Assembly (NCBI RefSeq): GCF_031585635.1 | Contig: NZ_CP134196.1 | Coordinates: 186,001-250,000, forward strand | Length of the DNA stretch: 64,000 nt | Direction of reading: 5' to 3' | From: Paraburkholderia sp. FT54 | Lineage (GTDB): Bacteria > Pseudomonadota > Gammaproteobacteria > Burkholderiales > Burkholderiaceae | Shown: one piece after another, positions 4,055 to 53,659 of the stretch | Position numbering within the stretch: position 1 is the first letter of the stretch | How the letters are laid out: each line of letters starts with the position of its first letter | Notes under the pieces: generated by a model | What the model saw: the letters and a program-made list of their open reading frames with translations, nothing else | Database searches by the model: none | Told to the model about the DNA's origin: nothing | Program-made: the position numbers and the translations under genes

Positions 4055-4383
4055 TTCGGTCGGCGGTCGAGCTCCGCCTGTGCGAAATACGCCAATGCCT
4101 TGCGCAGGATCTCATTGACCTGGCGTAGTTCACGGTTCTCCCGTTCCAGTTCTTTCAGGCGTTCCTGATCGGCGCTGTTGCCATCGGCCCGCAGGCCCCG
4201 ATTGCGTTCGTCCTGACGTACCCAGTTACGCAGCGTCTCGCCGGAACAGCCCATCTTGGCGGCAATCGACGCAATTATTTTCCATTGCGATTCATGTTCG
4301 CCGCGATGCTCGTGCACCATCCGGACTGCCCGTTCACGAACTTCCGGCGAATACCTTGGTGACTTCTCCTTGATGTTTTCCAT
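4051..4383 (-). CDS. IS3-family OrfA (helix-turn-helix protein)
   Basis: A 110-residue OrfA that binds the IS ends. The N-terminal helix-turn-helix includes 'SPEVRERAVRMVHEH' and 'GCSGETLRNWVRQDE'. A C-terminal leucine-zipper-like coiled coil, 'LKELERENRELRQVNEIL', follows. Its stop overlaps the GTG/ATG start of orfB by a few bases, the usual coupling in this family. It is intact, but orfB downstream is truncated, so the element cannot move on its own. Confidence 0.85.
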   Translation of the reverse strand: MENIKEKSPRYSPEVRERAVRMVHEHRGEHESQWKIIASIAAKMGCSGETLRNWVRQDERNRGLRADGNSADQERLKELERENRELRQVNEILRKALAYFAQAELDRRPK

Positions 4384-12557: not shown

Positions 12558-14099
12558 GTGAAAAGATCTAAGACTCAACTCTCAGTAAGCATTCTTTCGA
12601 TGATCTCGGCTATCGCGATCGGTCAAGCCGCATATGCAGAAGGCATGACGCGCGATACTGGACAACCGGTCGGCGACAACCAGAATTCCCAGACCGCAGG
12701 TCCCGAAGGTCCGGTTCTTCTGCAGGACTCGAATCTCGTCGAGAAACTGCAGCGCTTCGATCGCGAGCGCATCCCGGAGCGCGTTGTTCACGCACGCGGC
12801 ACGGGCATTTTTGGCGAATTCGTTCCCAGCGCTGACATCAGCTCGTTGACCACCGCGAAGGTGTTCACGCCGGGCACGAAGACGCCGGTGTTCGTGCGGT
12901 TCTCGACGGTGATGGGCTATCGCGGATCTCCGGAGCAGGCTCGCGACCCGCGCGGCTTCGCGATCAAGTTCTACACGCAGCAAGGCAACTGGGACATGGT
13001 CGGCATCAACTGGCCAGTGTTTTTTATCCGTGACGCCATCAAGTTCCCGGACTTCGTGCATGCGAACAAGCCGTCGGCAGTGACCGGCGTGCAGGACCCG
13101 AACCTCGCGTTCGACTTCTTCGCTCACTCACCCGAAGCGACCAACATGCTGACCCATCTCTACACGGATGAGGGCATGCCCAACTCGTACCGTCACATGG
13201 ATGGCTTCGGTGTGCACGCGTTTAAGTTCGTCAACGCGAAGGGCGAAGTGCACTACGTGAAGTTCCACTGGAAAAGCCGCCAGGGCATCGAAGGCATTCG
13301 TCCGCAGGACATTCCGCATTCGATCGGCGCGGACTGGAACCTGATGACCAACGACCTGTACAACTCGGTCAAGGCACATTCGTATCCGCAGTGGGACCTG
13401 TATATCCAGGTAATGTCGCCGAAGGATCTGGCCAAGTACGATTTCGACCCGCTGGACGACACGAAGGTATGGCCGACGTCGATTGCTGAGCAAAAGGTCG
13501 GCACCATGACGCTCAACCGCGTTCCGGATAACTACTTCCAGTCCACGGAAGAATCCGCGTTTGCGCCGTCGCGCTTCGTGCCGGGCATCGAGCCTTCCGA
13601 AGACCGGATGTTGCAAGGGCGTCTCTTCGCCTACGCGGACACTCAGATGTACCGCCTTGGACCGAACTACAACGACCTGCCGATCAACCGCCCGGTTGTC
13701 CCGGTGGACAACAACAACCAGGACGGCTTCATGAATGCCGGCGACCGCAAGGGCGAAGTCAACTATGAGCCCTCCGGTATCAACGAAATCTCCGAGCAGC
13801 CGAAGTACAAGTCCGTGCGGACGACGCTCACGGGTACGACGCAGCAACAGGCGATCCACAAGACGCTCGACTTCCGACAGGCTGGCGAGTATTACCGCAG
13901 CCTGTCCGATCAGGACAAGACGGATCTGGTGACCGCCCTCTCGGCCGATCTCTCACACGTAACGAACGATGCGAACAAGTACACGATGCTGTCGTACTTC
14001 TACAAGGCTGATTCCGACTACGGAACCCGTCTTGCGCAGGCAACACACGCTGACGTCGCGCGGGTCCAGGGTCTGGTGGCACATCTAGGTGACAATTAA
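12558..14099 (+). CDS. Exported monofunctional haem catalase
   Basis: A 513-residue small-subunit catalase that converts hydrogen peroxide to water and oxygen. A Sec signal peptide ('KTQLSVSILSMISAIAIGQA', cleavage near 'AYAE') implies periplasmic action, as in KatB-type enzymes. The catalytic His78 is in 'ERVVHARGTGIFGEF'. The Asn is in 'VGINWPVFFIRD', where the usual 'GNNTP' reads 'GINWP', keeping the Asn. The proximal haem Tyr lies in 'RLFAYADTQMYRLG'. I start at GTG 12558 because AAGGA precedes it; the frame opens at 12489 without one. An ankyrin gene, a frequent neighbour of such catalases, lies far away at 38886. Confidence 0.92.
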   Translation: MKRSKTQLSVSILSMISAIAIGQAAYAEGMTRDTGQPVGDNQNSQTAGPEGPVLLQDSNLVEKLQRFDRERIPERVVHARGTGIFGEFVPSADISSLTTAKVFTPGTKTPVFVRFSTVMGYRGSPEQARDPRGFAIKFYTQQGNWDMVGINWPVFFIRDAIKFPDFVHANKPSAVTGVQDPNLAFDFFAHSPEATNMLTHLYTDEGMPNSYRHMDGFGVHAFKFVNAKGEVHYVKFHWKSRQGIEGIRPQDIPHSIGADWNLMTNDLYNSVKAHSYPQWDLYIQVMSPKDLAKYDFDPLDDTKVWPTSIAEQKVGTMTLNRVPDNYFQSTEESAFAPSRFVPGIEPSEDRMLQGRLFAYADTQMYRLGPNYNDLPINRPVVPVDNNNQDGFMNAGDRKGEVNYEPSGINEISEQPKYKSVRTTLTGTTQQQAIHKTLDFRQAGEYYRSLSDQDKTDLVTALSADLSHVTNDANKYTMLSYFYKADSDYGTRLAQATHADVARVQGLVAHLGDN

Positions 14100-14515
14100 A
14101 GACGGGTCGTAGTTTTCGGTGTCGGTGCCGTGCACGTATGGTGCTGGCTCGAGCCACACCTATGCTCGGAGGTTGTGACGTGATGAACGCTCCTTTGCAG
14201 TGGATGTCACGACCTGATCCGCGGCCCGCGACGTGGTCGTGACAGACGATCCGCTGGCCGCGGAGGGTAATTCGCAGCCCCCTCAATTGGAGAAGTAGAC
14301 CCACAGAAAACGGACCACCCGAGGGATTGACTTTCAATGCCTCATAGAAGTGTGCTGCACCCACCGGTTGAATCCGCCGTTAGCAGGCGGGCATTCGAGT
14401 CGCGAGAACGAATGTAGTTCATCTGCAATTCAATCGAAGGACTGTCGACAACGGGCCCAACCAGGTTTTAGCTTCCCTTTTCTAACGCAGCAGATCATCA
14501 ATGATGATCATCGGG
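14100..14515. other. Intergenic, nothing recognised
   Basis: About 415 bases after the catalase; neither strand shows a recognisable gene or a good terminator. Confidence 0.4.
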
Positions 14516-15530: not shown

Positions 15531-15659
15531 ACGTTGGCGAAGGTCTTGCGCAAGCTGGCAGGACCGGTATCGCCTGGTGATACTTCAGCGATGCCTGAGC
15601 CGTCTGCGGCGAAAGTCGCTTGGGCGGTTCTTTGGGGAGGAGACGGCAGTGATGCCGTC

Positions 15660-16105
15660 TCTTTACCCGCTCATCTGTTGCCGCAACCGCTGCATGGACA
15701 GGAGCGGTGCGTCTATGGTGACAGCGCGTATGCCGGCCAGAAGGCGCTGATTCGCAGCAAGGCGCCGGACGCCCAGGATTTCACGAATCAGCGCACGCGC
15801 CGTGCCGGCGGCGAGGTCGATGAGGTGCAGCGCGGCAAGAACCACAACAAGTCAAAGATCCGCGCGCGCGTGGAGCATGTCTTCGCGGTGGTCAAGCGAC
15901 TGTGGGGTTTTACGAAGGTGCGCTATCGCGGCCTGGGAAAGAAGGCCTGCCGGGCGTTCACCGCGCTGGCGCTCGCTAACGTCTACCTGTCGCGCCGACG
16001 ATTGATGCCATCGGTCCGCCCGTAAAGGGCGAGAATCGGGCAAATGACCCGCCAGCAGGGCCCGAAAGGGCCGGAAAGTCAGGGGCGGAAGTGCGACTTG
16101 ACGAC
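15660..16105 (+). pseudogene. IS5-family transposase, 3' half
   Basis: The C-terminal part of an IS5-group DDE transposase ends at 16025. 'VYGDSAYAGQKALI' carries the second catalytic Asp. 'NKSKIRARVEHVFAVVKRLW' carries the catalytic Glu, and 'ALALANVYLSRRRLM' is the usual end. The first half with the first Asp is missing. The remaining bases to about 16105 are probably the right end of the element, but I could not identify a matching left repeat. Confidence 0.75.
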
Positions 16106-23988: not shown

Positions 23989-24867
23989 ATGACACCCCTA
24001 CGTCGACGCATGATCGAGGATATGCGCGTACGCAGCCTCGCGGCCAATACGCAACGCGCGTATCTCCAGCAGGTAAGCAACTTTGCCAGACACTTCGGCC
24101 GTTCCCCTGAACTGCTGGGCCCGGAGGAGGTGCGCGCCTGGCAGGTGCACCTGATCGAAGTCCAGCGGCGCTCATCCAGCACCCTGGTGGTGGCGACTGC
24201 GGCGCTGCGCTTCCTGTATCACATCACGCTCAAACGCGAGTGGGCGGTCGAAGAACTCCCGATAGCGCGGAGGCCGCGCAAACTCCCGGTGATCCTCAGT
24301 CAGGACGAGATCACCCGGTTCCTTGAAGCGATCCGTAGCGTCAAGCATCGGACCGTACTGATCGCCGCCTACGCCGCCGGCCTTCGCATTTCGGAAGCCA
24401 CCCGGCTGAAGGTCGGCGATATCGACAGCCACCGCATGATGCTGCGCGTCGAGCAGGGCAAGGGCCGCACCGACCGCTACGTGATGCTCTCGCCACGGCT
24501 GCTGGACATCCTGCGCAGCTACTGGTGTATTGGCCGGCCCCAGTACTGGCTGTTTCCTGGCCGCTTCCCGGATCAACCTGTGGGTGCCGACGTGGTGCGA
24601 CAGGCGTGCCATGACGCACGTCGCCGTGCCGGTATCACCAAACCAATCACGCCGCACTCCTTGCGCCATGCGTTTGCGACGCACCTGCTCGAATCCGGCA
24701 CGGATGTGCGTCTGATCCAGTTGCTGATGGGCCATCGCAGCCTGGCCACGACGGCGCGTTACCTGAAGGTCGCGACCAGCACGATCTGCGCGACGACCAG
24801 CCCGTTCGACCGGTTGCCGTCAACGTCTCCGCAGGCTTCACCTGAACCACCGGTTGAGCACGTTTGA
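23989..24867 (+). CDS. IS91-associated tyrosine recombinase
   Basis: A 292-residue integrase. The N-terminal core-binding domain is 'RMIEDMRVRSLAANTQRAYL'. The catalytic domain has the Arg in 'AYAAGLRISEATRLK', the HXXR in 'HSLRHAFATHLLE', and the Tyr in 'GHRSLATTARYLKV'. All key residues are present, so it should be active. It is co-transcribed with the transposase that follows. Confidence 0.9.
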   Translation: MTPLRRRMIEDMRVRSLAANTQRAYLQQVSNFARHFGRSPELLGPEEVRAWQVHLIEVQRRSSSTLVVATAALRFLYHITLKREWAVEELPIARRPRKLPVILSQDEITRFLEAIRSVKHRTVLIAAYAAGLRISEATRLKVGDIDSHRMMLRVEQGKGRTDRYVMLSPRLLDILRSYWCIGRPQYWLFPGRFPDQPVGADVVRQACHDARRRAGITKPITPHSLRHAFATHLLESGTDVRLIQLLMGHRSLATTARYLKVATSTICATTSPFDRLPSTSPQASPEPPVEHV

Positions 24868-24873
24868 ACCGCC

Positions 24874-26067
24874 ATGAAGGCTCCGCTGGAGCTGGCGGAC
24901 GTCCTGTGCCGCCACGGCCCGACATACCGGCATCTGCACGCCGACTCGCTCGACCGCGAGCAGCGTCGCGTCATGCGTGCCATCGAGCAGTGCCGGACGG
25001 CGGCTCTGGGCGGTCACGTCGAGCAGTGCGACGCCTGCGGACATCAGCGCATCGCCTACAACTCGTGTGGCAACCGGCACTGCCCGAAGTGCCAGTCGCT
25101 CGCCCGGGCACAATGGCTCGAGCGCCGCCAGGCGGACCTGCTACCTGTGCCTTACTTCCACGTCGTCTTCACGGTCCCGCAGGAGATCGCGGCCATCGCA
25201 TTCCAGAACAAGCGAATCGTGTACGACATCCTGTTCCAGGCAACCGCCGAAACGCTGCAGACGATCGCTGCAGACCCACGGCACCTCGGCGGCACGATCG
25301 GCTTCATCGCACTGCTGCACACCTGGGGGCAGAATCTGGGCCACCATCCGCATCTGCACTGCATCATCCCGGGCGGCGGCCTTGCTGCCGACGGCACGCG
25401 CTGGGTGGCTTGCCGGCCGGGCTTCTTCCTGCCGGTGCGGGTTCTCTCGCGCCTGTTCCGTCGGCTGTTCCTCGAGCGCTTGCAACAGGCCTTCGATATC
25501 GGGGCACTCCGCTTCTTCTCGTCACTGGCTCACCTGTCTGAGCCGGGCGAATTTGCCCGCTATCTTTCTGGCTCGCGTCAAACCGGGTGGGTCGTCTATG
25601 CCAAGGAACCATTCGGCGGTCCTCAGCAGGTGCTCGACTATCTCGGCCGCTACACACACCGCGTCGCGATCTCGAACAGCCGACTCATCAGTCAGACCGA
25701 TCAGCACGTCACGTTTCGCTGGAGGGACTATCGTCATCCCGGCAGACCACGCGTGATGCGCCTGGACGCCTGCGAGTTCCTGCGCCGTTTCCTGCTGCAC
25801 GTATTGCCGCATGGATTACAACGGATTCGCCACTACGGACTGCTTAGCAACCGGCTGCGCGAGTCCAGCCTCGCCACATGTCGCCGACTGCTTGGTGCGC
25901 CGTCCAACGAAACCCATGGAACATCCAGGCCTGACTACCGCGACCATTATGCGCACCTGACTGGCGGGTCACTGCGCGACTGTCCCGTCTGCAAACACGG
26001 TCACATGATCTGCGTCGAATACCTCCTGCCTGGCGCACCGGCGCGGGCACCACCATGCCGGCAATGA
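24874..26067 (+). CDS. IS91-family HUH transposase
   Basis: A 397-residue rolling-circle transposase. The N-terminal zinc-binding region has 'CDACGHQRIAYNSC' and 'CGNRHCPKCQSLAR'. The HUH-type metal site is 'HPHLHCIIPGGG', near residues 158-170. The single catalytic Tyr is probably that in 'RIRHYGLLSNR'. A C-terminal 'CPVCKHG' adds a further metal knuckle. It is complete and probably functional. Fragments of a close relative lie at 2627-2753 and 4660-4784. Confidence 0.92.
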   Translation: MKAPLELADVLCRHGPTYRHLHADSLDREQRRVMRAIEQCRTAALGGHVEQCDACGHQRIAYNSCGNRHCPKCQSLARAQWLERRQADLLPVPYFHVVFTVPQEIAAIAFQNKRIVYDILFQATAETLQTIAADPRHLGGTIGFIALLHTWGQNLGHHPHLHCIIPGGGLAADGTRWVACRPGFFLPVRVLSRLFRRLFLERLQQAFDIGALRFFSSLAHLSEPGEFARYLSGSRQTGWVVYAKEPFGGPQQVLDYLGRYTHRVAISNSRLISQTDQHVTFRWRDYRHPGRPRVMRLDACEFLRRFLLHVLPHGLQRIRHYGLLSNRLRESSLATCRRLLGAPSNETHGTSRPDYRDHYAHLTGGSLRDCPVCKHGHMICVEYLLPGAPARAPPCRQ

Positions 26068-34012: not shown

Positions 34013-34631
34013 GCCTGATATTCATTGAAAGGCGTTCCCGCAGCACCAAGGAGAGGGCGGCCGAGGTGTGGGCAATCGTCTCATGCAATTGGCCGAGGGG
34101 GAGCGCCGGCACGTGAACGAGCGCTTCGATCGCTTGGGGCAGGTTGCGACTCGCGCGCCAGTTTCGCGGCTCGCACACGTTCGTTAGTATGACCGGCCTG
34201 CACAGACGCATGCTGTCCAGCGACACGGATCGCAACAACTTCACGACGCAACGGACGGAACGTTGTTGTGGTTGCGCAAGTATGAAAGAGGGCGTGAGCA
34301 ACGGAAGCGCCGGTGGAGGACGTTGCGAATCGCGTCATTCGGTGGGCGAAGCTTGAACGGCCGGGCGGGGTCGCGTTGAACCGACGGGCAACCGGCAAAG
34401 TCGGCCAGCTCGGGCCGTTCGTCACCCGCAGCTCCAAACGGCTGGGGCGCCGCTTTCGCTATCAAGAAAAGACATTCATTGCGAAGGCGGACGACACTTG
34501 GTTCACGCAGTCGATGACCGCGTCGATCATGGGACAAATGAGCACCTTGATCAGGAGCAGCACATTGCCGATGTCAAAAGCCTTCGTACTCAAAGGATAA
34601 GATCCGGCGAACTGGGCGGGGATGGGACCGA
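34013..34631. other. About 620 bases without a recognisable gene
   Basis: Several open frames on both strands but none recognisable and none with a good start. It may contain decayed coding sequence downstream of the nitrile hydratase operon. Confidence 0.4.
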
Positions 34632-34991
34632 TCATGGCGGCCTTTCCCGGGGAGGCGGTGGGGTCAGGGCCGACGCCAGGCTTGCGATTTCGACCGGCGA
34701 CAGCACGCCAGCCTCAAGCATGGTCTGCTCAAGCGCAACCAGGAAGCGCTGGTAGTAATTCCACTGGGGCTGGCCGGGGCACTGTCCGGCTTCCCACTGC
34801 GCGATCGAGCGGATGAGGTTCTGGCGGAAATCCTCCCACTCGAAATAGCCGGCCTTGGAAAGCGACAACGCCAGGCCGAAGACCTTGCGTTCCCATGGAT
34901 GACCGAAGCGCAGCTTGCCTTGTGAGCGTGGCGGCGAATCGGGCTGGCCGAGCATGCTGGATGCCGCGTATTCCTCAAAGCGCGTGAACAT
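34632..34991 (-). CDS. Nitrile hydratase accessory protein
   Basis: A 119-residue protein of the nitrile hydratase activator family, related to the N-terminal part of the beta subunit. In cobalt enzymes such proteins bring metal to the alpha subunit and help oxidise its Cys ligands by subunit swapping. Visible features are 'RFGHPWERKVFGLALSLSKA' and 'FEWEDFRQNLIRSIAQWEAG', the helical motif shared with NHase beta. It starts two bases after the alpha-subunit stop, so the two are translationally coupled. Length is normal. Confidence 0.85.
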   Translation of the reverse strand: MFTRFEEYAASSMLGQPDSPPRSQGKLRFGHPWERKVFGLALSLSKAGYFEWEDFRQNLIRSIAQWEAGQCPGQPQWNYYQRFLVALEQTMLEAGVLSPVEIASLASALTPPPPRERPP

Positions 34992-34993
34992 GG

Positions 34994-35632
34994 CTACACC
35001 GTAGCAGACGCGCCGGCCGGGGGAGCGACGAGCGCCACGCCCATCATGGATTCGGGGGTGACGAGTTCCGCCAGTTCGGCTTCGCTCATGCCACCGGTGC
35101 CGGCCGGCCGCTCCGGCACGACGAACCAGCGGATCTGCGCGCTGCTGTCCCATACCTTGACCTGAACGTCATCCCTGATTGGCACGCCGAACTCCTTGAG
35201 CACCGCGCGCGGCTCGCGCACGCCGCGGGCCCGAAACACCGGGTCCTTGTACCAGTACGGCGGCAGGCCGAGCACCGGCCACGGATAGCACGAGCACAGC
35301 GTGCAGATGATCAGGTTGTGCACGCCGTTGCCGTTGGCGACCGCGGCCATGTGCTCGCCTTCCGCTCCGGTCATGCCGGCCGGGAAATTCATTTCTGCGA
35401 TCGCCTTTGGCGTGTCTTCGATCAACCGCTGCTTGAATGCGGGGTCCACCCACGCACGGGCGACCAGGCGCGCGCCGTTGAAGGGCCCGGCGACCGTCTC
35501 GAAGTGCTTCAGGACCGTGTCGACCGAATCGCTGCCGATGACGCCCTTCTCGATCAGCAACGCCTCGAGCGCGCGGACCTTGGCGGCACTCTCGGATTCG
35601 CGGTCGTCGTCGTATTCAAAGAGTTCGCTCAT
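34994..35632 (-). CDS. nthA: Nitrile hydratase alpha subunit (cobalt type)
   Basis: A 212-residue catalytic subunit that hydrates nitriles to amides in the cytoplasm. The metal site is the claw motif at Cys110, Cys113 and Cys115 in 'CTLCSCYPWPVLGLPPYWYK'. Thr in the second position ('CTLC' rather than 'CSLC') is the usual mark of non-corrin cobalt enzymes. The helical N-terminus ('VRALEALLIEKGVI') and 'RLVARAWVDPAFKQRL' are typical. The gene order beta-alpha-accessory is that of cobalt-type operons in several bacteria. The adjacent cobalt genes fit. Confidence 0.92.
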   Translation of the reverse strand: MSELFEYDDDRESESAAKVRALEALLIEKGVIGSDSVDTVLKHFETVAGPFNGARLVARAWVDPAFKQRLIEDTPKAIAEMNFPAGMTGAEGEHMAAVANGNGVHNLIICTLCSCYPWPVLGLPPYWYKDPVFRARGVREPRAVLKEFGVPIRDDVQVKVWDSSAQIRWFVVPERPAGTGGMSEAELAELVTPESMMGVALVAPPAGASATV

Positions 35633-35659
35633 GCTTCGCTCCGTATCAATGAAGGCCAG

Positions 35660-36403
35660 TCAGTTCGAGGCTTCGAGATAGGCTTCGAACAGGTCGGCAT
35701 AGATCGTCGTGTTAGGTTCGCTCTTTTGCTTGCCCCAGATATCCTCGGCGGCAAACGCCACGCGATAGACGGGCATCGGCGCGCCGATGCCGTCCGGGCC
35801 CGTGGAAACGAAATAGGAGTACGCGCCCGGGTATACGAGATCGACTGTGCCATGCTTGTTGCGCAAGTACCCCGGCAGGCGCGTGTGATCGACCGCGTCG
35901 GGATCGGCGACCGTCACACGGGCCCCCTGCGCGAAGCGTGGCGTCCCGCCGAGCGGGCGCAGTGGCGAATCGCCGTGCATCAGGTAATCGACGATTTGTG
36001 CCGAAATGGCCGGTTTGGCACTGGCAGGCAATGGCGCATCGGGGTTGGCGCGGTAGTAGTTGGTCTTGCTGACCAGTTCGTCCGCCGACACGTAGCCCTG
36101 ATCGACAAAGAACTGCGCGATGCCCATCAGCCATTTCTCGTAGTAGCGGTACTTGAAGTACTCGAACGGATTCATGTCTTCCGCGCCGGCGCGCAGCGAC
36201 GCCCAGGTCCACTTTTCCTTGAACGCGGTCGGCAGCGTCTTAACCGGATAGTTCTGGAGCGCGTCCGACAGGTGGGTGCTTTCCGCCATCATCACGGTGT
36301 GAATGCCGAAGATGCGCTTTTCCCATTCCTCCGCAAAGACACGGGTGTCCAGGTTGACTGGCCCGAGATTCTCGAGGCCACCGAGGGTGTGTGCTAGTTT
36401 CAT
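35660..36403 (-). CDS. nthB: Nitrile hydratase beta subunit
   Basis: A 247-residue structural subunit that forms the active-site channel with alpha. It begins 'MKLAHTLGGLENLGPVN', and continues 'MNPFEYFKYRYYEKWLMGIA' and 'TRLPGYLRNKHGTVDLVYPG', the SH3-like C-terminal domain that contacts the metal site. 'YRVAFAAEDIWG' is the conserved end. The ribosome site AAGGAA lies upstream of ATG 36403. The alpha gene follows after 27 bases. The longer open frame to 36700 overlaps the upstream GTPase and is not used. Confidence 0.92.
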   Translation of the reverse strand: MKLAHTLGGLENLGPVNLDTRVFAEEWEKRIFGIHTVMMAESTHLSDALQNYPVKTLPTAFKEKWTWASLRAGAEDMNPFEYFKYRYYEKWLMGIAQFFVDQGYVSADELVSKTNYYRANPDAPLPASAKPAISAQIVDYLMHGDSPLRPLGGTPRFAQGARVTVADPDAVDHTRLPGYLRNKHGTVDLVYPGAYSYFVSTGPDGIGAPMPVYRVAFAAEDIWGKQKSEPNTTIYADLFEAYLEASN

Positions 36404-36527
36404 CGCGAGTTTCCTTGCGAACAGGGGCGTATCGGCGAGGGCGGGCTCGTCGATGCTGACGGGAGGGCTTCGATCACTATCACTGTGGGTTCCTTTCGAG
36501 AAAGAGACAGCAGTCGAACAGGACAAC

Positions 36528-37523
36528 TCAGGCCGCGAGGCATTCAGCGAACGATTTGCGCAGACGATGCGGGTCGATACCACGGCCGATAAAGACCAGG
36601 CAGTTGCGGCGCGCCTCGTCGCGCCGCCAGGCACGGCCGGGACGAGCCTCCAGCAACATGTGCACGCTGTGGAACAGGAACTGGCGCGGCTCGTCGACAA
36701 AGTTCAGCACCCCCTTCATGCGCATCAGCCGCGTGCCCTCCTCCTGGACGAGCAGGTTGACCCAGCGGTTGAAGCGCGTCGGGTCGAGCCGCCTGTCCTC
36801 GACAATCGAGTACGACTGGATCGAACTGTCGTGCTCGTGGTCGTGCTCGGCGTCTTCGTCGAGCAGGTCCGGTTCGATGGCCAGCACGGCAGGCAGGGAG
36901 AAGCGCTTCACGCCGAGCAAGTCGTCAGCCGGCACGGATGAGCGCGTCGACGCAAAGAGCGTGGCGGTTGGGTTCAGCGATTTCACCTCGGCCTCGATCG
37001 CGGCGCGCTCGCCGTCATCGACGAGATCGAGCTTGTTGACGATCACGACGTCGGCGAAGGCCACCTGCTCGCGAGCGATCTCGTCCTGGATCTGCTGGGG
37101 AAAATGCCGGGCGTCGACGAGGGTGACGACGGACTCGAGCTCCACGAGCTCACGCACGTCGGGATCGGCGAGGAAGGTCTGGAGGACGGGTGCCGGATCG
37201 GCAAGGCCCGAGGTCTCGACGATCAGCCTGTCGACCGGCGTGCCGCTGACGCGGCTGCGCGCCAGCAGTTCCTTGATGCCGGCGACGAGGTCGACGCGCA
37301 CCGTGCAGCAAATGCAGCCGTTGTTGATCTCGACCAGCGCCTGCTCGTCGGCCACGATCAACTGGCCGTCGATGCCGACCTCTCCGAATTCGTTGACGAC
37401 GATGCCAATGCGCTCGATCGCGCGCTGTTCGATCAGGTGATTGACCAGCGTGGTCTTGCCGGCACCCAGGAACCCCGAGATGACGGTGACCGGAACTTTG
37501 GCATAGCGGGTGGTGTGAATCAT
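36528..37523 (-). CDS. CobW-family (G3E) metallochaperone GTPase
   Basis: A 331-residue GTPase of the COG0523/CobW family, which deliver metals to target enzymes. Walker A is 'GFLGAGKT' (residues 17-24). The metal-binding CXCC is at Cys70-Cys73 in 'NNGCICCTV'. The nucleotide-specificity motif is 'VNKLDLV'. A His-rich metal-binding stretch ('[12 protein letters not shown]') precedes the C-terminal CobW_C domain. Located between the cobalt transporter genes and nitrile hydratase, it very probably feeds cobalt to the hydratase. The ribosome site is GAGGGG. It is 124 bases upstream of the beta subunit gene. Confidence 0.9.
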
Positions 37524-37596
37524 CTACACCCCTCATGTTTCAGATGACGACAAAGTGAAAGGAGGAAGTACGCCGGTGAACGCATGTCGGCACCCT

Positions 37597-38167
37597 TCAA
37601 GCGCGGGCGTCACCCAGTTCGCTGCGCTCGACCCACACACCGAACAACAGGCCGATCGTCGTCCACATGATCACCTGCATGCCAATGGCCGCGACGCGAA
37701 ACTTCCAGGCCACGACTGCAGGAAATATCGCAGACACTTCGCTGATTGCCGGCAGGCGAGCTGCACCGCCGTGATGATTGCGATGAACACGAGTCCAGCG
37801 AGGATCGATGCATTCCATTGCCCCACCTTGACTGCTAGCTGACGGCGCACGTCGAGCGAAAAGATATCGTCGCGACCGAAATCGCGATCATCAGGAAAAA
37901 CAGGGAGGTGCGATAGCCGATTGTTTCCGGATTGCCGACCGATGGAGGATTTGCCGGATATTTGACGTTCGGCACGATGACGAGCGCGACGAATGCCGCC
38001 AACGCGAGCCACGCGGACAGTGGTCGCGCCGAGATCCGCCCGAAGCGGCCGTACGCGTATGCGAAGGTCACCGCAAACAATCCACCGAACGCGGCGCCGT
38101 AGGTCACGACGCCCGTCAGAAGTCCTATGCCCGCCAGCATCCCGCGCAAGAGCAGCTTTCCAATCAT
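37597..38167 (-). pseudogene. cbtA: CbtA cobalt transporter subunit, two frameshifts
   Basis: The minus strand encodes a CbtA membrane protein in three frames: 'MIGKLLLRGMLAGIGLLTGV' and on to 'FFLMIAISVATI' in frame one, 'LDVRRQLAVKVGQWNASILA' to 'IITAVQLA' in the next, and 'LPAISEVSAIFPAVVAWKFR' to 'VWVERSELGDARA' in the third. Joined, they give about 190 residues with the expected hydrophobic segments. Frameshifts lie near 37860 and 37750. CbtA works with CbtB to import cobalt under cobalamin-riboswitch control. Either the gene is dead or the sequence has two errors here. It starts 13 bases after cbtB. Confidence 0.75.
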
Positions 38168-38180
38168 CCGGGCCTCCGCG

Positions 38181-38390
38181 TCAGTGACAGGGGAAGCCCA
38201 GCAGATGCCGGCCGTCATGCACGAACTCATGTACGTACATACCGGGTACGATCGAGGTCGCGCCCTCTTCCGCACCGACGAAATAGATTGCAAGCAGCAG
38301 AATCAGGCCAGCGAACACGACCCAGGGCAACAGTTCACGGACGGGGATGGGGGTTGGCGTGACGACCGGTTTCAGGATTGCTTCACTCAT
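38181..38390 (-). CDS. cbtB: CbtB cobalt transporter subunit
   Basis: A 69-residue protein with one transmembrane helix ('LLPWVVFAGLILLLAIYFVG'). The C-terminal His-rich motif is 'YVHEFVHDGRHLLGFPCH', the diagnostic metal-binding end of CbtB. It is the first gene after the riboswitch-like leader and precedes cbtA. Length is normal for the family. Confidence 0.88.
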   Translation of the reverse strand: MSEAILKPVVTPTPIPVRELLPWVVFAGLILLLAIYFVGAEEGATSIVPGMYVHEFVHDGRHLLGFPCH

Positions 38391-38411
38391 GTTGAAACCT
38401 CCCGGGGGTAT

Positions 38412-38530
38412 CGCGTCCCGTAGACAGCAGAGGAAGTACGAAGGCAGGCCAAGTTCCCGGAAGTGGGGATTCCCGGTTACAGTGGCGCCACTACGCCGCG
38501 ATTACACTGGCTTTCGCGCTTCGTATCGGG
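38412..38530 (-). promoter_or_regulatory. Cobalamin riboswitch-like leader of cbtBA
   Basis: Read on the minus strand, the leader contains GCGCCACTGTAACCGGGA, then CCCACTTCCGGGAA, then GGCCTGCCTTCG. These are the conserved blocks of the 3' half of proteobacterial B12 riboswitches (CGCCACTGT..CCGGGA, GGGAAG, and the B12-box end CTGCCTTCG). It lies directly before cbtB, the usual target. The 5' half (P1-P5 region) is less clear, and the B12 box 'AGCCAGGAGACC' portion is shortened, so the element may be degenerate. Confidence 0.65.
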
Positions 38531-38885
38531 AGATTGTACGCGTGAATTCAGCGACGTTGTAAGCCACTTGGAATGGTAGGCAAGCGTCGTGCACTGCGGC
38601 ATGAGCGCGTTCGCACACTGTTACGCAACGCGATCGTGTTCCCAATATTCGTCAACGATTGGCCGGTGATTATCGTGATTGGGCGGTGACTATCATTTAT
38701 CTGCTGCGACACATGTCCGTGCCTGACCCGTGCGGATCCTGCGGCAGGAAACGCCACAAGGCGAGGCGGCCCGTCAGAAGCGGTGAAACCGGAGCGCCGA
38801 ATGCTCTGGTCAGCTTTTTCTTAGCACCATTCCTTTACGGGAATCGAATGAACTGCCGGGATGATGCGATAGACCGAACATCAGA
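38531..38885. other. Intergenic, nothing recognised
   Basis: About 350 bases upstream of the cobalt operon. It should contain the operon promoter. A direct repeat-like pair, GATTGGCCGGTGATTATC and GATTGGGCGGTGACTATC, lies at 38658-38695. Confidence 0.4.
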
Positions 38886-39664: not shown

Positions 39665-40861
39665 TTACTGACTCGTCTGCTGGAACATCTTCAGACGTAC
39701 GGAGAAGTTCTTTTCGTAGGAATCTGTCGATTGATACCCCAAGGGGGAAGGCGTTTTCGATGATCCGCTACTCTGTCGATGACACGCCTGAGCGTGACAG
39801 CCAGGTGCATACAGTTCCCGATCAAGGCACGTTTCGCTTTGATAGTGAAGGCGATACTGCCTAGGCGAGATGCCCAGACATCTTTGGAAGACGCATCTCA
39901 TGCGATCTGGATTCCCAAAGCCACACGCATAAGCGATCGCTTTCAAAGGAATTTCGCTCCCCTGCAGCATGACGCGCGCAGCGTTCATGCGGGCATCCAT
40001 GACATATTCGGCAGGCGAAATTTTCGTGTCGTGGACGAACGTGCGAGCGAATGTACGAATGCTCATGTTCGCAATGCGTGCGAGAGCTTTGACCGACAGG
40101 TCATCGGCTAGATTCGACAGGACGTATTGCTGGACTTGTGCAACCCGCGAACAGCCTTTCACAGATGGCGTGAAGTGGGGACTCGACTGGGATTTCCCAC
40201 CCGCGCGCTGCATGGACGCGTAGAGCCGCTCGGCAACTTTCGACGCGACTTCACTGCCTTTGTCCAGGTTCAGCAGGTGAAGGGGGAGATCGACTGCTGC
40301 TGTTGCGCCGGCCGACGTATAGACGTTGCCGTCCTCAACAAAAGGCCGGTCGACTTCGACACGGGCGGTAGGGCACAACGCCGCAAGCTCGTCTGCATAG
40401 TTAGCGTGAATGGTGATCATTCGGTGATCCAGCAGGCCGGCGCGCGCCAGAATGAAGACGCCACTGCAGATCGCGCCGAAGCATCGCGCCTGCCGACTTG
40501 CACGCTTAAGCCACGCATAGCTCTCGTCGGTGAACTCCCGACGAACCAGTCCGGGGCCGCCCGCCACAAGCAGCAGGTCGTATGCATCATGCGCGTTACT
40601 GAAATGTCTGTCGGCGAAAATGGCCAATCCGTTTGAACATCGAAGCGGCCCATGCTCCAGCCCCACTACTTCCACTCGATAGTGCGAGTCCGCCGACGGG
40701 AAGCGGTTGGCTTCCGCGAAGACGTCGAGGGGCCCACAAATGTCCCGCGATTGGACACCGGGAAAAGCGACTATAGCGACGCTTCTCATGCGGCTGCTCA
40801 TATCCCTGAACGGCCGCGGGTGCGACAGCGTGGATGGTCTGGTAGCGATGGGGGTGTTCAT
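39665..40861 (-). CDS. GlxA-family AraC-type transcription regulator
   Basis: A 398-residue regulator. Residues about 25-195 form a DJ-1/PfpI-like sensing domain with 'DLLLVAGGPGLVRREF' and the nucleophile-elbow segment 'CFGAICSGVFILARAG'. Residues about 225-330 are the AraC DNA-binding domain with 'LSVKALARIANMSIRTFART' and 'SEIPLKAIAYACGFGNPDRM'. About 60 C-terminal residues beyond 'ISPRQYRLHYQS' are unusual and may come from a lost stop codon. AAAGGA lies upstream of ATG 40861. Family members sense amino compounds or quaternary amines; the target here is unknown. Confidence 0.88.
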   Translation of the reverse strand: MNTPIATRPSTLSHPRPFRDMSSRMRSVAIVAFPGVQSRDICGPLDVFAEANRFPSADSHYRVEVVGLEHGPLRCSNGLAIFADRHFSNAHDAYDLLLVAGGPGLVRREFTDESYAWLKRASRQARCFGAICSGVFILARAGLLDHRMITIHANYADELAALCPTARVEVDRPFVEDGNVYTSAGATAAVDLPLHLLNLDKGSEVASKVAERLYASMQRAGGKSQSSPHFTPSVKGCSRVAQVQQYVLSNLADDLSVKALARIANMSIRTFARTFVHDTKISPAEYVMDARMNAARVMLQGSEIPLKAIAYACGFGNPDRMRCVFQRCLGISPRQYRLHYQSETCLDRELYAPGCHAQACHRQSSGSSKTPSPLGYQSTDSYEKNFSVRLKMFQQTSQ

Positions 40862-48061: not shown

Positions 48062-51000
48062 TCATGACGCGCTCTCGCCAATCGAAGGCAGACTGAACTG
48101 GAATGTGGCGCCCTGTCCGGCATGGCTGGATGCCCACAACCGTCCTCCGTGAGCTTCGATGATCGAACGGCAGATCGACAGCCCCATGCCCATCCCGTCG
48201 GCCTTGGTGGTAAAGAAAGCGCTGAACAGCCGGTCCGCGTTGGCCGGATCGATGCCCGGGCCGGAGTCCTGAACCGCGACGACCACGTGTCCCTCCGTAT
48301 CCCGGCGCGATTCGATCAGTAGCTCACGTGCGTCGTCGCCAATCTCAGCCATCGCCTGCATCCCGTTCATCATCAGATTGATTAGCACCTGCTGAAGCTG
48401 CACCCGATCGCCGAGCAGCGCAGGCAATCCGGAGCCGAGCCTGAGAGACAACGATACCCGACGGTTCGAGACTTCGCGCTGCACCAGCAGCACCACGTCA
48501 TTGATCACATCGTTGAGTTCGAGGCGCGTCTTCTGCGGCGCGGCGCTCCGCGTGAGCGAACGGATATGCTGGACGATCGCGCTCGCGCGCCCGCCTTCGG
48601 CGATCATGTGCGTCACGCAGGCCCGCACCTCCTCGGGCTGCGGCGTCCGGTGGCCGAGCCAGCGCAGGCACGCCTCGCCGCTCGTCACGATCGCACTGAG
48701 CGGCTGCCCGACTTCGTGGGCGATGGACGCACTCAGCTCCCCGAGCGTCGTCACGCGCGTTGCATGCGCGAGTTCCGCCTGGAGCGCCAGCAACTGCTCC
48801 TGCGCGCGCTTCGCCTCGACCCGCCGCGTGGCAAGCTCGGCCTCGGCCTTCTTGCGTTCGCTCAGATCGAGCACGAAGGCCACGCCGTTTTCCTGCGAAC
48901 CTTCCAGTAAGGCCGCGCCGATCAGCACCGGAATGCGCCGGCCATCCTTGCGAATGTATTCCTTCTCATAGGGCTGGCAGGTCCCCCCTTGCCGGAGTAC
49001 GTCAAGTGCGTGGGCATCGGCGGCGCGATATTCCGGGGGTGTCATGCCGGCCCACCCGACCTGGCCTGACAGCAGTTCCGGTCGCGAGTAGCCAACGATG
49101 CGCAGAAACTCGTCGTTCGCGTCCGTCGCCATTCCGGTCACGTTCCAGAAAAACAGTCCGATGATGTTCGACTCGACGAGCCGCCGGATGCGCGCTTCGC
49201 GCTCGCGCAACTCTTCCTCGGCCAGCTTGCGTTCCCTGTTTTCGCGCTGCACATCGGCATAGAGCAGCGCGTTCTCCAGCGCGATCGCGGCCTGCGAGGC
49301 GAGCAGCTTCAGCACTGCAATGCGCGATGGGGCAAACACGCGGGGCGCCAGGCTGTTTTCGAGGTATAGCACGCCGATAAGCTTGGCCTGCGCGAGCAAC
49401 GGCAAGCAGAGAATGGACCGCGCCTGCCGCTGCTGGATGTAACAATCAGCGGCGAACGGAGATTCGGCCGCGGCATCATCGAGGATAACGCTTTCCCCAG
49501 AGCGCAGGACATAGTGGAGCACCGACGCCGGCAGCACGGTCTCGGCCACGGACTCGTCGCACAAATGCACGGCCACCGTATCGCCGCTGGTTGTGGCTTC
49601 CGCAGCGATCCGCTGCGTAGCCCCTCGCGCAAGAATCAAAAGAACTCGCTCGGCGCCCGCCTGCGCCATCGCCGTGCGCATAAGGGTGTCGAGTAGTTTC
49701 TCCAGGACGATCTCGCCCGAGACGGCTTGAGACACCTTGATCACGGTCGCCAGGTCGAGGTGTTCGACCGGCGCGCCGATCGTGCTCGTCGGCCCTGCAA
49801 CAGGCGGCTCATGCGTAAGCTGCGGATATGACTGATCAAGCTGCCTCACCTTGCCATTGGCGCCCCAGCGGAGATAGCTGTAACGCGCATTTCCGAGGTA
49901 GACACGCGCAATTTCATCGAAGCCACGTGCCGCATAGAAGCGCGCGGCCACTTCGTAAGCGAGCCCCTCGTTATGGACAAAGCCGTTTGTGCGAGCTGAC
50001 CGGATGGCCTGTTCGTAGAGCTGCTCAGCATCAACCACGCGGCCTTCGATGCGGGCGATCTCGGCGCCGACCAGCGCGGCGCGGTTCTCGAAGTTCTCCG
50101 GACAATTCTCCGCCCAGACCTGCAGTTGTCGGTGATGCGCAGCCAGCGCTTCCATGCACTGCTGCCGCTCCCCGGCCGGTGCGCAGTCGCAGTAGGCCGC
50201 CTGGGCCAGCGCGCCGTAAAAGTGATATTCGGTTTCCTCAAAGTACAAGGCTGAGGTCCAAAGCAGCCGTTGCGCTTTTGAAGCGGCGTCCCGGGCCGCC
50301 GCATAGTCGCCGGCCAAATAGAGCGCCTGCAATTTCCGGATCCAATACCAACACGCAGCAAGCGTCAAGGCCGGGTTGCTGGATAAGTGGTGTTCGATGT
50401 GAAGCTCATTGAACTGCCCGTCGTCAAAGTAACCGAATTTCAACGTCAAGCCGCGCAGCATCCGAATCATCGCAAATTGCACAGCGATGACGTCAATGAC
50501 AAGGCCGAACCGCGCCTTCCTGGCGTATGCGAGGCCGTGTTCGGCTTCGCCTTGCACCTCGGGTAGCGGCTCGCCGGCGAAAAGCAGGTTCGAGTTGAGA
50601 TGCGTACACGTGTAGGCGCCATACGTGAGGTCTCCGTTCCGGTTCGCCGCTTCGAACGCGCGGCCCAACAGATCACGGCAAGCCCGCACGTGTTTCATCC
50701 AGCGCATGACAAAAACCGCGAAGCAAAGATAGGTGCTCGCCTCAAAGCGCTTTAGCCCGCGTCGTTCGACGAGTTCATAGCCGAGCTGGCCGAATCGAAA
50801 TCCGGCCGGGTAGTCGCCGAAACGCGGTCCAGCGACTCTGCCGAGCTGGACATAGGCGACACAGGAGGCATCACAGTTGCCGAGTTCGATGCTGAGACTG
50901 GCCGCCTTGCAGATCGTCAGGGAAGCCAGGTTCGCATCGGTAAAGCGGGCCGGCGGCAAAAGCTTACTCAGAACATCGACCGTGGCGAGGGACGCCGCGT

Positions 51001-53659
51001 CCGCCATCCGCGGCAAATCGATGAGATCCTCGATAGTCCGGCCCCCCAGCAGTGACCAGATGCGTTCATATTCATGTCGCACCTCCTCCTCTTTCGGATG
51101 AGGGGACCACGCGATACCGACATGCCGGAGGTATTCAAGACATACAGCAACCGCGCGGCCGCTCTGATCAAGTGTCGTGCAGACGTCGCTATGCAAGCAG
51201 GTGACGAGGGCGCGTTCGACCGTTGTTGCGGGACGCTTTGAGAGAGCCGTCAACCGCTCCTCTGCGATCGATAACTGGCCGGTCAAAAATTCGCATTCGG
51301 CCTGGTTCAGCTTTAGCGCAAAGACCAGCTCACGCCGGCGCTCCAAGCCATCTCCCGCCAACAGCGCCGCACCGGCATTGAAATAGGTGAGTGCCGAGGT
51401 AAAGGCCGTGGAAGACTTGGCGCGCTGGCCGGCGAGCAGATTGAACTCGGCGAGTTGCTCCCGCTCGTCGCAAGACGTTATCAAGGCCGCGCCGCGGTTG
51501 AGCTGACCCACGATCTCGAAGATCGCCTCTTCCCGTTTTTCCGGGGGTGTCTGTGCGGAAAGCAGACGTCCGATTCGCAGATGGGCCTCGGCGCGTGATG
51601 CTTCCGGGATCAGTGAATAGGCGGCTTCCTGCACCCGGTCGTGAACAAACTTATAGGAACCCTCCAGCCGCACAACCAACTCCTGACGAAGCGCCTCCCA
51701 CAGCGCCCCGTGGACCCGCGTCTCCGAGACCCCGAGTACGATCGAAAGCATGGCGATGGCTGCAACATTCCCCAAGCAGGCGAACTGTTGCAACGCCTGC
51801 TGCGTATCGGCTGGCAGGCGGGTCACCTTGGAAACTATCAGGTCGACGACATTGTCGGTATAGCTCCTGGCGTGAATGCTATGGAGGTCCCAGCGCCAAC
51901 ACGCCGCGTCATAGTCGAAAGTGAGTAATGCGTCGTCGGCAAGCGCCTGTAGAAACTGAATCACGAAGAACGGATTGCCGGCGGTCTTCTCCCGCACGAG
52001 CTGCGCCAGCGGCGCGGCACACGCCGGCTCGCCGTGAAGAGCATCTGCAATCAACTGCGCTATGTGCTCACGAGCGAGCGGTGCAAGCGTCATCTCCTCG
52101 ATTTTGGCGCCGGCTTTTTTGATCGTTTCGAGTTTGCGCATCAGCGGATGCGTGGCATCGACTTCATTGTCGCGATAGGCGCCGATCAGCATCAGATGTC
52201 GGAGATCCGAGCTGGTCAACAGATCCTCCAGCAAGTCGAGCGTTGTCGCGTCGAGCCACTGCAAATCGTCGAGGAACAGCATTAGCGGATGGTCCGGTCG
52301 TGCGAAGACGCCGATAAAACGCCGGAACACGACCTGAAAACGGCGTTGTGCCTGCTGCGGCTCAAGCTCCGGGACCGGCGGCGGCTCGCCGATGACGAGC
52401 TTCAATTCGGGGATGAGGTCGGTCATGAGCCGCGCATTCGGGTCCAGCGCTTCCAGCAACGCGCCGCGCCAGCTCGCCAGCTCCGTGTCGCGCTTGCCGA
52501 GCAGCGGCCGCACCAGGCTTTGAAAAGCCTGCACCAGCGTCGAATAGGGAATATCACGCTTGTACTGGTCGAACTTGCCGGAGGCGAAGAGCCCCCGACG
52601 AGGCACCAGCGCTTTGTGCATTTCATTGACGACCGAGGATTTGCCGATGCCGGAATAGCCGGCAACCAGCACGAGTTCGGGCGCACCGCGCTCGACGATT
52701 CGATCGAACGCGGCGACTAACGTATCGACCTCGCACTGTCGCCCGTACAGCCTCTCGGGAATCAGCAGGCGGTCGGGCGTGTCCTGTTCGCCCAGCGGGA
52801 AATCGTCGATGGGGTGATCGCCCCCCAGGCTGGCAAGGCAGCGTCGCAGGTCCCGTTCGACACCGCCCGCAGTCTGGTAGCGCTCTTCGGCCGTCTTGGC
52901 GAGCAGCTTCATGACGATGCGGGAAACCGGAGCCTGGATAGTGCGCAACCGCTCGCTGGGCGGCACCGGCTTTCGGGCGATATGGCAGTGCACCCATTCC
53001 ATGGGGTCAGCGGCCGTAAACGGCAGCATGCCGGTGAGCATCTGATACAGCGTGACACCGAGCGAATACAGGTCGCTTCGCGAATCAATGGAGCGATTCA
53101 TCCGGCCGGTCTGCTCGGGCGCCATGTAGGCGAGCGTGCCGGCGAGGGACTCCGGCGGTTCGGGCGCCTGTCTCTCTCGCGGCAGCCGCGAGGCGATGCC
53201 AAAGCCGGTCAGCCGCACCTGTCCATCCGTGCAGTTCACGAGGATATGGGCAGGCTTGAGGTCTTTATGGACGAGGCCGCGCTGGTGAAGTTTGCCCAGC
53301 GCTGCGGCGATGCCGACGGCGAGGCGCATAACGTTGCCCACCGCCATGGGCGCGCCGAGCAGCCGCTCGAGCGGCTCACCTCCCGGATCCTCAAGCACCA
53401 GCAGGGTTGCACGGTCTTCGCGCACCAGTTCCAGCGGCCGCACCGCCCACGCGCCATCGAGTTCGTCCTTCAATCCGAACTCGTGGGCGAGCCGATCGAG
53501 GCTAGCAGGTGAGGGATGTTCGACGGCGGACCGCGCGATGAGCACGGTGTCGTAGCCGCCATCGGCCGGCCGTCGTGCTCGACTCAACACCCGCTCGCCG
53601 TCCGCCCACAGGGTCTTGAGGCTGTTGCCCATCCCGTCGCGACCATATGTAGCATTCAT
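48062..53659 (-). CDS. Giant kinase/ATPase/GAF/PAS/histidine kinase
   Basis: A 1865-residue cytoplasmic signalling protein. Residues about 30-280 are a Ser/Thr-kinase-like domain with 'HKDLKPAHILVN' (131-142) and 'TGFGIASRL', where the Mg-binding DFG Asp is Gly, so activity is doubtful. Residues about 305-570 are an AAA-type ATPase with Walker A 'AGYSGIGKSS' and Walker B 'LMLFLDDLQWLD'. A long helical TPR-like region follows, then GAF ('ILCLPLLAQAKLIGVLYLEN') and PAS ('NIIGLFFWNVTGMATDANDE'). The end is a HisKA ('ASIAHEVGQPLSA') and HATPase_c ('GMGMGLSICRSIIEAHGG'). A ribosome site GGAGGG precedes ATG 53659. It resembles the trifunctional kinases known from Burkholderia and rhizobia. No response regulator is adjacent. 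Confidence 0.9.
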   Translation of the reverse strand: MNATYGRDGMGNSLKTLWADGERVLSRARRPADGGYDTVLIARSAVEHPSPASLDRLAHEFGLKDELDGAWAVRPLELVREDRATLLVLEDPGGEPLERLLGAPMAVGNVMRLAVGIAAALGKLHQRGLVHKDLKPAHILVNCTDGQVRLTGFGIASRLPRERQAPEPPESLAGTLAYMAPEQTGRMNRSIDSRSDLYSLGVTLYQMLTGMLPFTAADPMEWVHCHIARKPVPPSERLRTIQAPVSRIVMKLLAKTAEERYQTAGGVERDLRRCLASLGGDHPIDDFPLGEQDTPDRLLIPERLYGRQCEVDTLVAAFDRIVERGAPELVLVAGYSGIGKSSVVNEMHKALVPRRGLFASGKFDQYKRDIPYSTLVQAFQSLVRPLLGKRDTELASWRGALLEALDPNARLMTDLIPELKLVIGEPPPVPELEPQQAQRRFQVVFRRFIGVFARPDHPLMLFLDDLQWLDATTLDLLEDLLTSSDLRHLMLIGAYRDNEVDATHPLMRKLETIKKAGAKIEEMTLAPLAREHIAQLIADALHGEPACAAPLAQLVREKTAGNPFFVIQFLQALADDALLTFDYDAACWRWDLHSIHARSYTDNVVDLIVSKVTRLPADTQQALQQFACLGNVAAIAMLSIVLGVSETRVHGALWEALRQELVVRLEGSYKFVHDRVQEAAYSLIPEASRAEAHLRIGRLLSAQTPPEKREEAIFEIVGQLNRGAALITSCDEREQLAEFNLLAGQRAKSSTAFTSALTYFNAGAALLAGDGLERRRELVFALKLNQAECEFLTGQLSIAEERLTALSKRPATTVERALVTCLHSDVCTTLDQSGRAVAVCLEYLRHVGIAWSPHPKEEEVRHEYERIWSLLGGRTIEDLIDLPRMADAASLATVDVLSKLLPPARFTDANLASLTICKAASLSIELGNCDASCVAYVQLGRVAGPRFGDYPAGFRFGQLGYELVERRGLKRFEASTYLCFAVFVMRWMKHVRACRDLLGRAFEAANRNGDLTYGAYTCTHLNSNLLFAGEPLPEVQGEAEHGLAYARKARFGLVIDVIAVQFAMIRMLRGLTLKFGYFDDGQFNELHIEHHLSSNPALTLAACWYWIRKLQALYLAGDYAAARDAASKAQRLLWTSALYFEETEYHFYGALAQAAYCDCAPAGERQQCMEALAAHHRQLQVWAENCPENFENRAALVGAEIARIEGRVVDAEQLYEQAIRSARTNGFVHNEGLAYEVAARFYAARGFDEIARVYLGNARYSYLRWGANGKVRQLDQSYPQLTHEPPVAGPTSTIGAPVEHLDLATVIKVSQAVSGEIVLEKLLDTLMRTAMAQAGAERVLLILARGATQRIAAEATTSGDTVAVHLCDESVAETVLPASVLHYVLRSGESVILDDAAAESPFAADCYIQQRQARSILCLPLLAQAKLIGVLYLENSLAPRVFAPSRIAVLKLLASQAAIALENALLYADVQRENRERKLAEEELREREARIRRLVESNIIGLFFWNVTGMATDANDEFLRIVGYSRPELLSGQVGWAGMTPPEYRAADAHALDVLRQGGTCQPYEKEYIRKDGRRIPVLIGAALLEGSQENGVAFVLDLSERKKAEAELATRRVEAKRAQEQLLALQAELAHATRVTTLGELSASIAHEVGQPLSAIVTSGEACLRWLGHRTPQPEEVRACVTHMIAEGGRASAIVQHIRSLTRSAAPQKTRLELNDVINDVVLLVQREVSNRRVSLSLRLGSGLPALLGDRVQLQQVLINLMMNGMQAMAEIGDDARELLIESRRDTEGHVVVAVQDSGPGIDPANADRLFSAFFTTKADGMGMGLSICRSIIEAHGGRLWASSHAGQGATFQFSLPSIGESAS

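Follow-up and report, generated by a model that had tools for sequence, protein, structure and literature searches.

A predicted cobalt-type nitrile hydratase operon behind an eroded adenosylcobalamin riboswitch and a broken cbtA gene in Paraburkholderia sp. FT54

Introduction

In bacteria, cobalt serves not only vitamin B12 but also a small number of non-corrin enzymes, such as the cobalt-type (Co-type) nitrile hydratase (NHase), whose operon in Rhodococcus rhodochrous has the gene order nhlBAE and is accompanied by the NiCoT importer nhlF. Here we describe an NHase operon in a stretch of 64,000 nucleotides (the window) of Paraburkholderia sp. FT54, which corresponds to positions 186001-250000 of contig C2 in a genome of 8.6 Mb and 5 contigs. 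As read from open reading frames (ORFs) and family models, the minus strand of the window carries, in this order, a leader, cbtB, a remnant of cbtA, a COG0523 (CobW-like) GTPase gene, nthB, nthA and nthE. We consider it likely that this is a Co-type NHase operon lying behind an eroded adenosylcobalamin (AdoCbl) riboswitch and a broken cbtA gene, with a module reduced to promoter, leader and cbtB, and without a direct response to B12.

The activator of iron-type (Fe-type) NHase, Nha3, is a member of COG0523, and published surveys place COG0523 proteins, among NHases, only with the Fe-type (PMC2770081 section 7). Other papers name Nha3 with the Fe(III) NHase (PMC7895991), record Co-binding NHase in 31 bacteria and CbtAB as a predicted importer (PMC2667541), describe predicted cobalt NiCoT genes near Co-NHase genes, and NhlF (PMC7689651), and report the co-location of cbtA with cbtB (PMC3596284). 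NHase is joined neither to a riboswitch nor to a COG0523 GTPase in the accessible parts of PMC7142416, PMC3596284, PMC10604320 and PMC8400943, and those of PMC7193024 and PMC13243292 contain no coupling of NHase to a riboswitch. Neither a link between Co-type NHase and COG0523 nor one between NHase and a riboswitch was found in the accessible parts of the literature searched, one key review of COG0523 lying outside the search.

With the R. rhodochrous operon the window shares the beta-alpha-accessory order of the NHase genes and the CTLCSC claw, and in the relatives of the window a cobalt importer likewise adjoins the enzyme. Unlike in R. rhodochrous, a COG0523 GTPase is present in the window, most of its relatives also carry DUF1097 and GlxA-type regulator genes, and their importers belong to several families.

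Results and Discussion

The leader of the operon

The Rfam search for a cobalamin riboswitch that was proposed in the preliminary description of the locus came out negative: Rfam cobalamin families give no match at gathering in the whole window, and none up to E 10 between positions 37500 and 39000, the leader staying below the gathering cut-off of RF01482 (50 bits). A match is nonetheless obtained with R1, a covariance model made from the leaders of congeners (alignment A1, 21 distinct sequences, window excluded). On the 64-kb window R1 returns positions 38432..38533 of the minus strand with 35.9 bits (E 2.9e-9), the runner-up place scoring 15.0, and we therefore regard the leader as a true relative of the riboswitch; judged by its sequence, it is a descendant of the AdoCbl riboswitch of the genus. 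The input of R1 came from 30 congener RF01482 loci, of which 18 with an adjoining cbtB were kept and 12 without it were dropped, and from 6 further leaders of cbtA-matched loci, 24 in total. For comparison, the leader of the intact cbtBA paralogue in the same genome, itself a member of R1, scores 115.4 bits.

Like the RF01482 riboswitches in front of other cbtBA pairs, this relic of an aptamer is placed before cbtB, has a closing stem of the same kind, retains the GCCACTGTAA core and is abutted by a -10-like hexamer, TACAAT (38533..38538, minus strand), a putative promoter element; TACAAT or TAGAAT is found at the equivalent place in 24/24 congener leaders inspected. The hexamer is absent from the matches to consensus promoters in the region, of which the sole one on the minus strand lies at 38696-38669 (1 versus 0.9 by chance). 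Unlike the congener copies, the window leader goes unrecognized by Rfam and has lost 10 of the 52 columns that are invariant in the 21 congener leaders, none of which (0/52) is lost in its closest relative, locus L114. The altered stretches include GGAAG, GGTG, CGGTC and AAGCCAGACC, which we take to be ligand-contacting; at the same stretches, no more than single changes are seen in the leader of Pararobbsia alpina and in three R1 matches of further genomes. The preliminary description of a cobalamin-riboswitch-like leader is right as to descent. Across the genus RF01482 is detected in 125/144 genomes at E 0.001 or better, and in 45/144 above the cut-off; Rfam alone would have misjudged the case, since it misses both the window leader and the P. 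alpina copy.

The cbtA remnant and the copy on contig C3

Behind the leader, cbtB is intact (38181..38390, minus strand, 69 aa, PF09489), but cbtA (37597..38167, minus strand), listed as an importer gene in the preliminary description, is broken. The CbtA profile matches it in two separate reading frames, the frame 37835-38293 (profile positions 62-158) and the frame 37597-37818 (profile positions 194-238), with a middle piece in the third frame; besides these two frame changes, about 48 residues of the intact CbtA paralogue are missing in frame (translations, counted by eye). A complete CbtAB importer, with both genes intact, is not encoded here. The island is not "self-contained" as it had been called, although the gene order on one strand is as described. 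A search of other assemblies for the truncated CbtA frame, made under length limits that leave it uninformative, gave no match. The readable piece of cbtA has a dN/dS of 0.20 versus L114, as compared with 0.11 and 0.11 for two intact pairs.

Window positions 34378-38470 recur at C3:237234-241325 with 99.5% identity (18 mismatches and 1 gap in 4,093 columns). Only 1 of these 19 differences falls within 34566-38329, the others crowding both ends; on one flank similarity resumes at 88-92% identity past a stretch that is absent from C3, and on the other there is no adjoining match. From these alignments, gene conversion or duplication, in either case recent, appears to have produced the pair. In C3 cbtA is broken in the same way, and the copy ends at 38470, inside the leader: other sequence stands in place of the aptamer's 5' half, and the -10-like hexamer is missing too.

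These data also bear on whether the cbtA lesions are errors of sequencing or assembly. Two frame changes would be typical of assembly errors, and a single assembly is involved; against this, the lesions are common to both copies, which lie on two replicons and differ from each other at their ends, base-calling errors do not produce a gap of some 48 residues, and the aptamer positions were found lost independently of cbtA. We regard such errors as a very unlikely source of the lesions.

Control by B12

Direct control of the operon by B12 is probably gone, given the loss of 10 of the 52 invariant positions, the broken cbtA and the absence of the aptamer's 5' half from the C3 copy. For the same reasons the earlier suggestion of a nitrile metabolism that follows the B12 level of the cell is unlikely to hold in cis. 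It amounts to a working B12 riboswitch that jointly controls importer, chaperone and NHase, and it can draw on the true homology revealed by R1, on the closing stem and GCCACTGTAA core that are kept, and on the compact gene order on one strand; set against the three losses just named, and the missing Rfam match up to E 10, it appears quite improbable. One could also imagine that the leader is an aptamer of changed specificity, for example for another corrinoid or a metal, in keeping with its stable fold, paired closing stem and constrained cbtB. Half of the leader is gone, however, from the C3 copy of the operon, and R1 found no further diverged copy above E 0.01 in 88 sources, so that we give this idea very little credence indeed.

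Transcription would start just past the -10-like hexamer and cross cbtB and what is left of cbtA before it reaches the genes for GTPase and NHase. Cobalt would enter the cell via other importers, either the intact cbtBA at C2:2.61 Mb (cbtA at C2:2612549-2613229, the sole complete CbtA match in the genome) or two NiCoT-family (PF03824) genes on contig C1, which score 352.8 and 327.1 bits. The GTPase would carry Co(II), and the accessory protein would insert the metal into the alpha subunit through subunit exchange, as known from Co-type NHases.

An indirect effect of B12 may persist, since the intact cbtBA has an AdoCbl riboswitch of its own: the genome has four RF00174 matches above cut-off and a weaker fifth, and this fifth place, before the intact cbtBA, scores 52.0 bits with RF01482, over the 50 bits of its cut-off. 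AdoCbl would in that case shut the riboswitch at C2:2.61 Mb, cobalt import would fall and the NHase would stay unmetallated. The operon's own cbtA being broken and the C2 CbtA the only complete one fit this scheme, but the two predicted NiCoT-type genes on C1 may import cobalt as well; on balance we find such regulation in trans rather unlikely.

Several observations weigh against a riboswitch that has decayed and an operon that has escaped B12. The closing stem of the leader is kept, 7 base pairs without a mismatch, and its fold has a z-score of -2.15 (6/200 shuffles as good), which is better than those of L114 (-0.08) and of the intact paralogue (-0.93); the shape of the RNA may thus still be under some constraint. 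In the same MAFFT alignment, 7/28 base pairs are unformed in L114 and 8, plus 3 gapped, in the window; since this count fails to separate the two, the case for decay rests on the invariant columns. The dN/dS of cbtB versus L114 is 0.05, which suggests that the module was functional until recently. A terminator scan of the region gave 6 terminator-like sites versus 3.9 +/- 2.0 by chance, 2 of them on the operon strand within the cbtA remnant. Lastly, the NHase genes of the window group with those of L024, an operon with a HoxN importer, at a weak support of 0.55.

Origin of the cbtBA module

In a tree of CbtB and readable CbtA from 49 loci, the sister of the window is L114, whose cbtBA is riboswitch-linked (support 0.97), and the window does not group with NHase-linked cbtBA, for which reason the riboswitch-cbtBA module was probably added to the NHase operon. 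Outside the own genome, none among the matches listed for 144 genomes spans cbtA and the GTPase gene. The simplest reading of these comparisons would be a chimera, made of an NHase operon that lacks the usual downstream importer and a riboswitch-cbtBA module in front of it. A circular permutation of a cluster like that of P. alpina (L037) was also considered; it is disfavoured by the position of the window cbtBA in the tree, with L114 rather than L037.

Related operons and their importers

The best 80 of 164 confirmed relatives of the window NthA were used for a comparison of loci. All 80 have the accessory gene and 76 a COG0523 gene (with CXCC in 75); DUF1097 is present in 57 and a downstream GlxA-type regulator in 60, and the claw is CTLCSC in 76, CSLCSCF in 1 and not read in 3. 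The importer is found behind the accessory gene: CbtBA in 22 loci, a HoxN-like protein in 20 and a weak HoxN-like match in 5, CbtB alone in 7, none seen in 26 (thus 54/80 with a match, by tblastn with few queries). Of 19 ORFs in this slot that were examined with Pfam, called mechanically so that some frames may be wrong, 2 are NicO, 2 CbiM, 3 HupE/UreJ and 2 CbtA, and 10 have no family; by these family assignments, importers of no fewer than four unrelated families occupy the slot. The comparison with other genomes, likewise proposed in the preliminary description, gives no parallel for the arrangement in the window: a CbtB, CbtA or HoxN match upstream on the same strand is present in 0/80 loci, 64 of which hold more than 2 kb there. 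In one locus (L062) a CbtB match stands upstream, though on the opposite strand.

To look for the riboswitch at these loci, R1 was run on 88 sources (the 80 loci, 5 plasmid loci, the window and 2 stretches of the own genome), and its only matches above E 0.01 are the paralogue, the window and P. alpina. In the latter (L037, 9100-9202; 80.8 bits) the riboswitch has a well-kept core and lies between nthE and cbtB, downstream of the NHase genes, so that it heads cbtBA only; Rfam misses it at gathering. P. alpina is thus the only one of the 22 NHase-linked cbtBA pairs to keep a riboswitch. Rfam at gathering likewise gives no cobalamin riboswitch in 26 loci (21 of the 22 and 5 with CbtB alone). R1 is a genus-level model and would be blunt for L101, from Mycolicibacterium; leaving this locus out, 19/21 of the genomes concerned, P. 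alpina included, hold an R1-detectable riboswitch somewhere, which indicates that R1 is able to find one in these genomes. An R1 match at first attributed to the contig of L030 proved to lie on another contig.

Among the congener matches listed, in contrast, RF01482 lies within 1.4 kb of cbtA in 102/109 cases, a hand-compiled set of cbtA rows that includes one NHase-linked case (G125:C156, a miss); the 7 misses may be real losses or an effect of the stricter filter. The difference between 102/109 and 1/22 has a Fisher p of 2e-17 if kinship is ignored, the two groups having been searched differently, with RF01482 and stricter filters in the former and with R1 in the latter. As far as such searches tell, cbtBA beside this NHase mostly goes without the B12 switch that congeners carry elsewhere.

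The NHase genes and the COG0523 GTPase

Family models confirm cbtB and the three NHase genes as they had been described. The beta subunit (nthB, 35660..36403, minus strand, 247 aa) scores 215.7 bits with TIGR03888 (cut-off 152.2), the alpha subunit (nthA, 34994..35632, minus strand, 212 aa) 287.1 bits with TIGR01323 (cut-off 249.85), and the accessory protein (nthE, 34632..34991, minus strand, 119 aa), presumably of the NhlE/P14K type, 62.8 bits with the Co-type accessory model TIGR03889 (cut-off 46). The claw read from the nthA translation, CTLCSCY, is of the Co-type CTLCSC form, and the top match of nthA in a sequence search of solved structures is a cobalt-containing enzyme. The operon is predicted to encode a Co-type, nitrile-degrading NHase. 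Values of dN/dS versus L024 (alpha 0.07, beta 0.14, GTPase 0.22) indicate constraint.

The GTPase (36528..37523, minus strand, 331 aa) had been called a CobW-family protein with a His-rich loop. It is a COG0523 GTPase by its PF02492 and PF07683 (88.6 bits) domains, its P-loop GFLGAGKT and its CXCC motif (CICC); its loop is only modestly rich in His, with at most 3 per 20 residues. Among NCBIfam models it scores 196.7 bits with PRK11537 (which we take to be YjiA), 193.5 with CobW and 186.4 with ZigA, all well under cut-off, and a sequence search of solved structures at E 1e-5 gives YjiA as the sole relative. A close relative (E 1e-100) occurs in 19/299 genomes of the taxonomic family.

The window and most of its close relatives (76/80 loci) pair this NHase, nearly always of Co-type, with a COG0523 GTPase, contrary to the published rule that among NHases such activators are Fe-type (PMC2770081 section 7). 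The wider distribution was assessed in a phylum sample that does not depend on resemblance to the window and takes in all 60 NHase-alpha matches scoring 246 bits or more in 398 genomes, the own genome excepted; 6 weak matches (20-33 bits) were dropped, and about 12 kb were fetched around each match kept. The claws are Co-type in 58 loci and Fe-type in the other 2. Within 5 kb and on the strand of the NHase genes, a COG0523 gene accompanies 2/2 Fe-type and 3/58 Co-type loci, its absence being weaker evidence in the 5/60 loci cut by contig ends (L200, L211, L220, L235, L244). The three GTPase-positive Co-type loci are arranged like the relatives of the window, with DUF1097, importer and GlxA-type regulator, and two of them lie on contigs equal in length to those of members of the 80-locus set (L249/L041 and L247/L060), so that the two surveys overlap.

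A midpoint-rooted tree was made of 28 COG0523 proteins, namely 19 GTPases out of the 76, 2 from the phylum sample, that of the window, 2 Fe-type activators and 4 from the own genome. In it a single clade (support 0.88) unites the 22 GTPases from Co-type operons, whose hosts range from cyanobacteria to Burkholderiales. Both Fe-type activators fall instead with a protein of the own genome that has ZigA as the best match of its C-terminal part (support 1.0). The window GTPase thus resembles Nha3 as a COG0523 protein with CXCC beside an NHase operon, but falls in a separate clade and accompanies a Co-type claw; the Fe-type-linked GTPases (L255, L257) are encoded downstream of alpha-beta, beside the claw CSLCSCT, are 31-32% identical to that of the window, and have 417 and 412 aa. 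With CobW it shares the family and a predicted handling of Co(II); unlike CobW it reaches only 193.5 bits against the 332.1 of the equivalog TIGR02475, and in the tree it is separate from own_L263, a protein encoded beside a cobalamin riboswitch and likely to be CobW itself.

Taken with the importer slot, these results suggest, as a proposal toward which we lean slightly less than away, a clade of Co-type NHases with a private cobalt route, in which the GTPase, recruited independently of Nha3 and CobW, would deliver Co to the enzyme, the slot would accept importers of at least four unrelated families interchangeably and B12 control would have been stripped repeatedly. If so, B12 sufficiency would not starve the NHase of cobalt, and the window would show such a loss caught half-way. 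With regard to how cobalt is divided between B12 and non-corrin enzymes, these operons offer a natural comparison of importers with and without a B12 riboswitch according to the neighbouring enzyme.

Other features

A second Co-type NHase, in alpha-beta order, is encoded about 20 kb beyond the window (L168:4402-5732, corresponding to C2:270401-271731); it has the claw CTLCSCY and a His-rich N-terminus, and an ArsR-like regulator gene adjoins it. None of the genome's 6 COG0523 genes lies in its surroundings.

No amidase family was recognized by family-model scans in the part of the window ORFs that they covered. A GlxA-type regulator gene at 39665-40861 was considered as the counterpart of the NHase-linked GlxA and rejected: it sits in front of the operon and not behind it, and its identity to the best GlxA match of each locus that has one is 31-43%, except for L045 (55%).

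Twelve congener RF01482 riboswitches have no cbtB or cbtA match in the stretch fetched (L138, L139, L141-L144, L148-L150, L156, L159, L165), and a Guanidine-I riboswitch (73 bits) was found at 14044-14179, minus strand, of a Paraburkholderia NHase locus (L049).

Elsewhere in the window, Rfam identifies an ALIL pseudoknot, an element of IS3-type transposases, at 3977-4093 (minus strand, 113 bits) and a group II intron match at 15595-15671 (plus strand, 48 bits), both signs of mobile elements in this region. Genes for an integrase and an IS91-type transposase adjoin each other at 23989-26067, and a protein of 1865 aa with Ser/Thr kinase, AAA, GAF, PAS and histidine kinase domains is encoded at 48062-53659 (minus strand).

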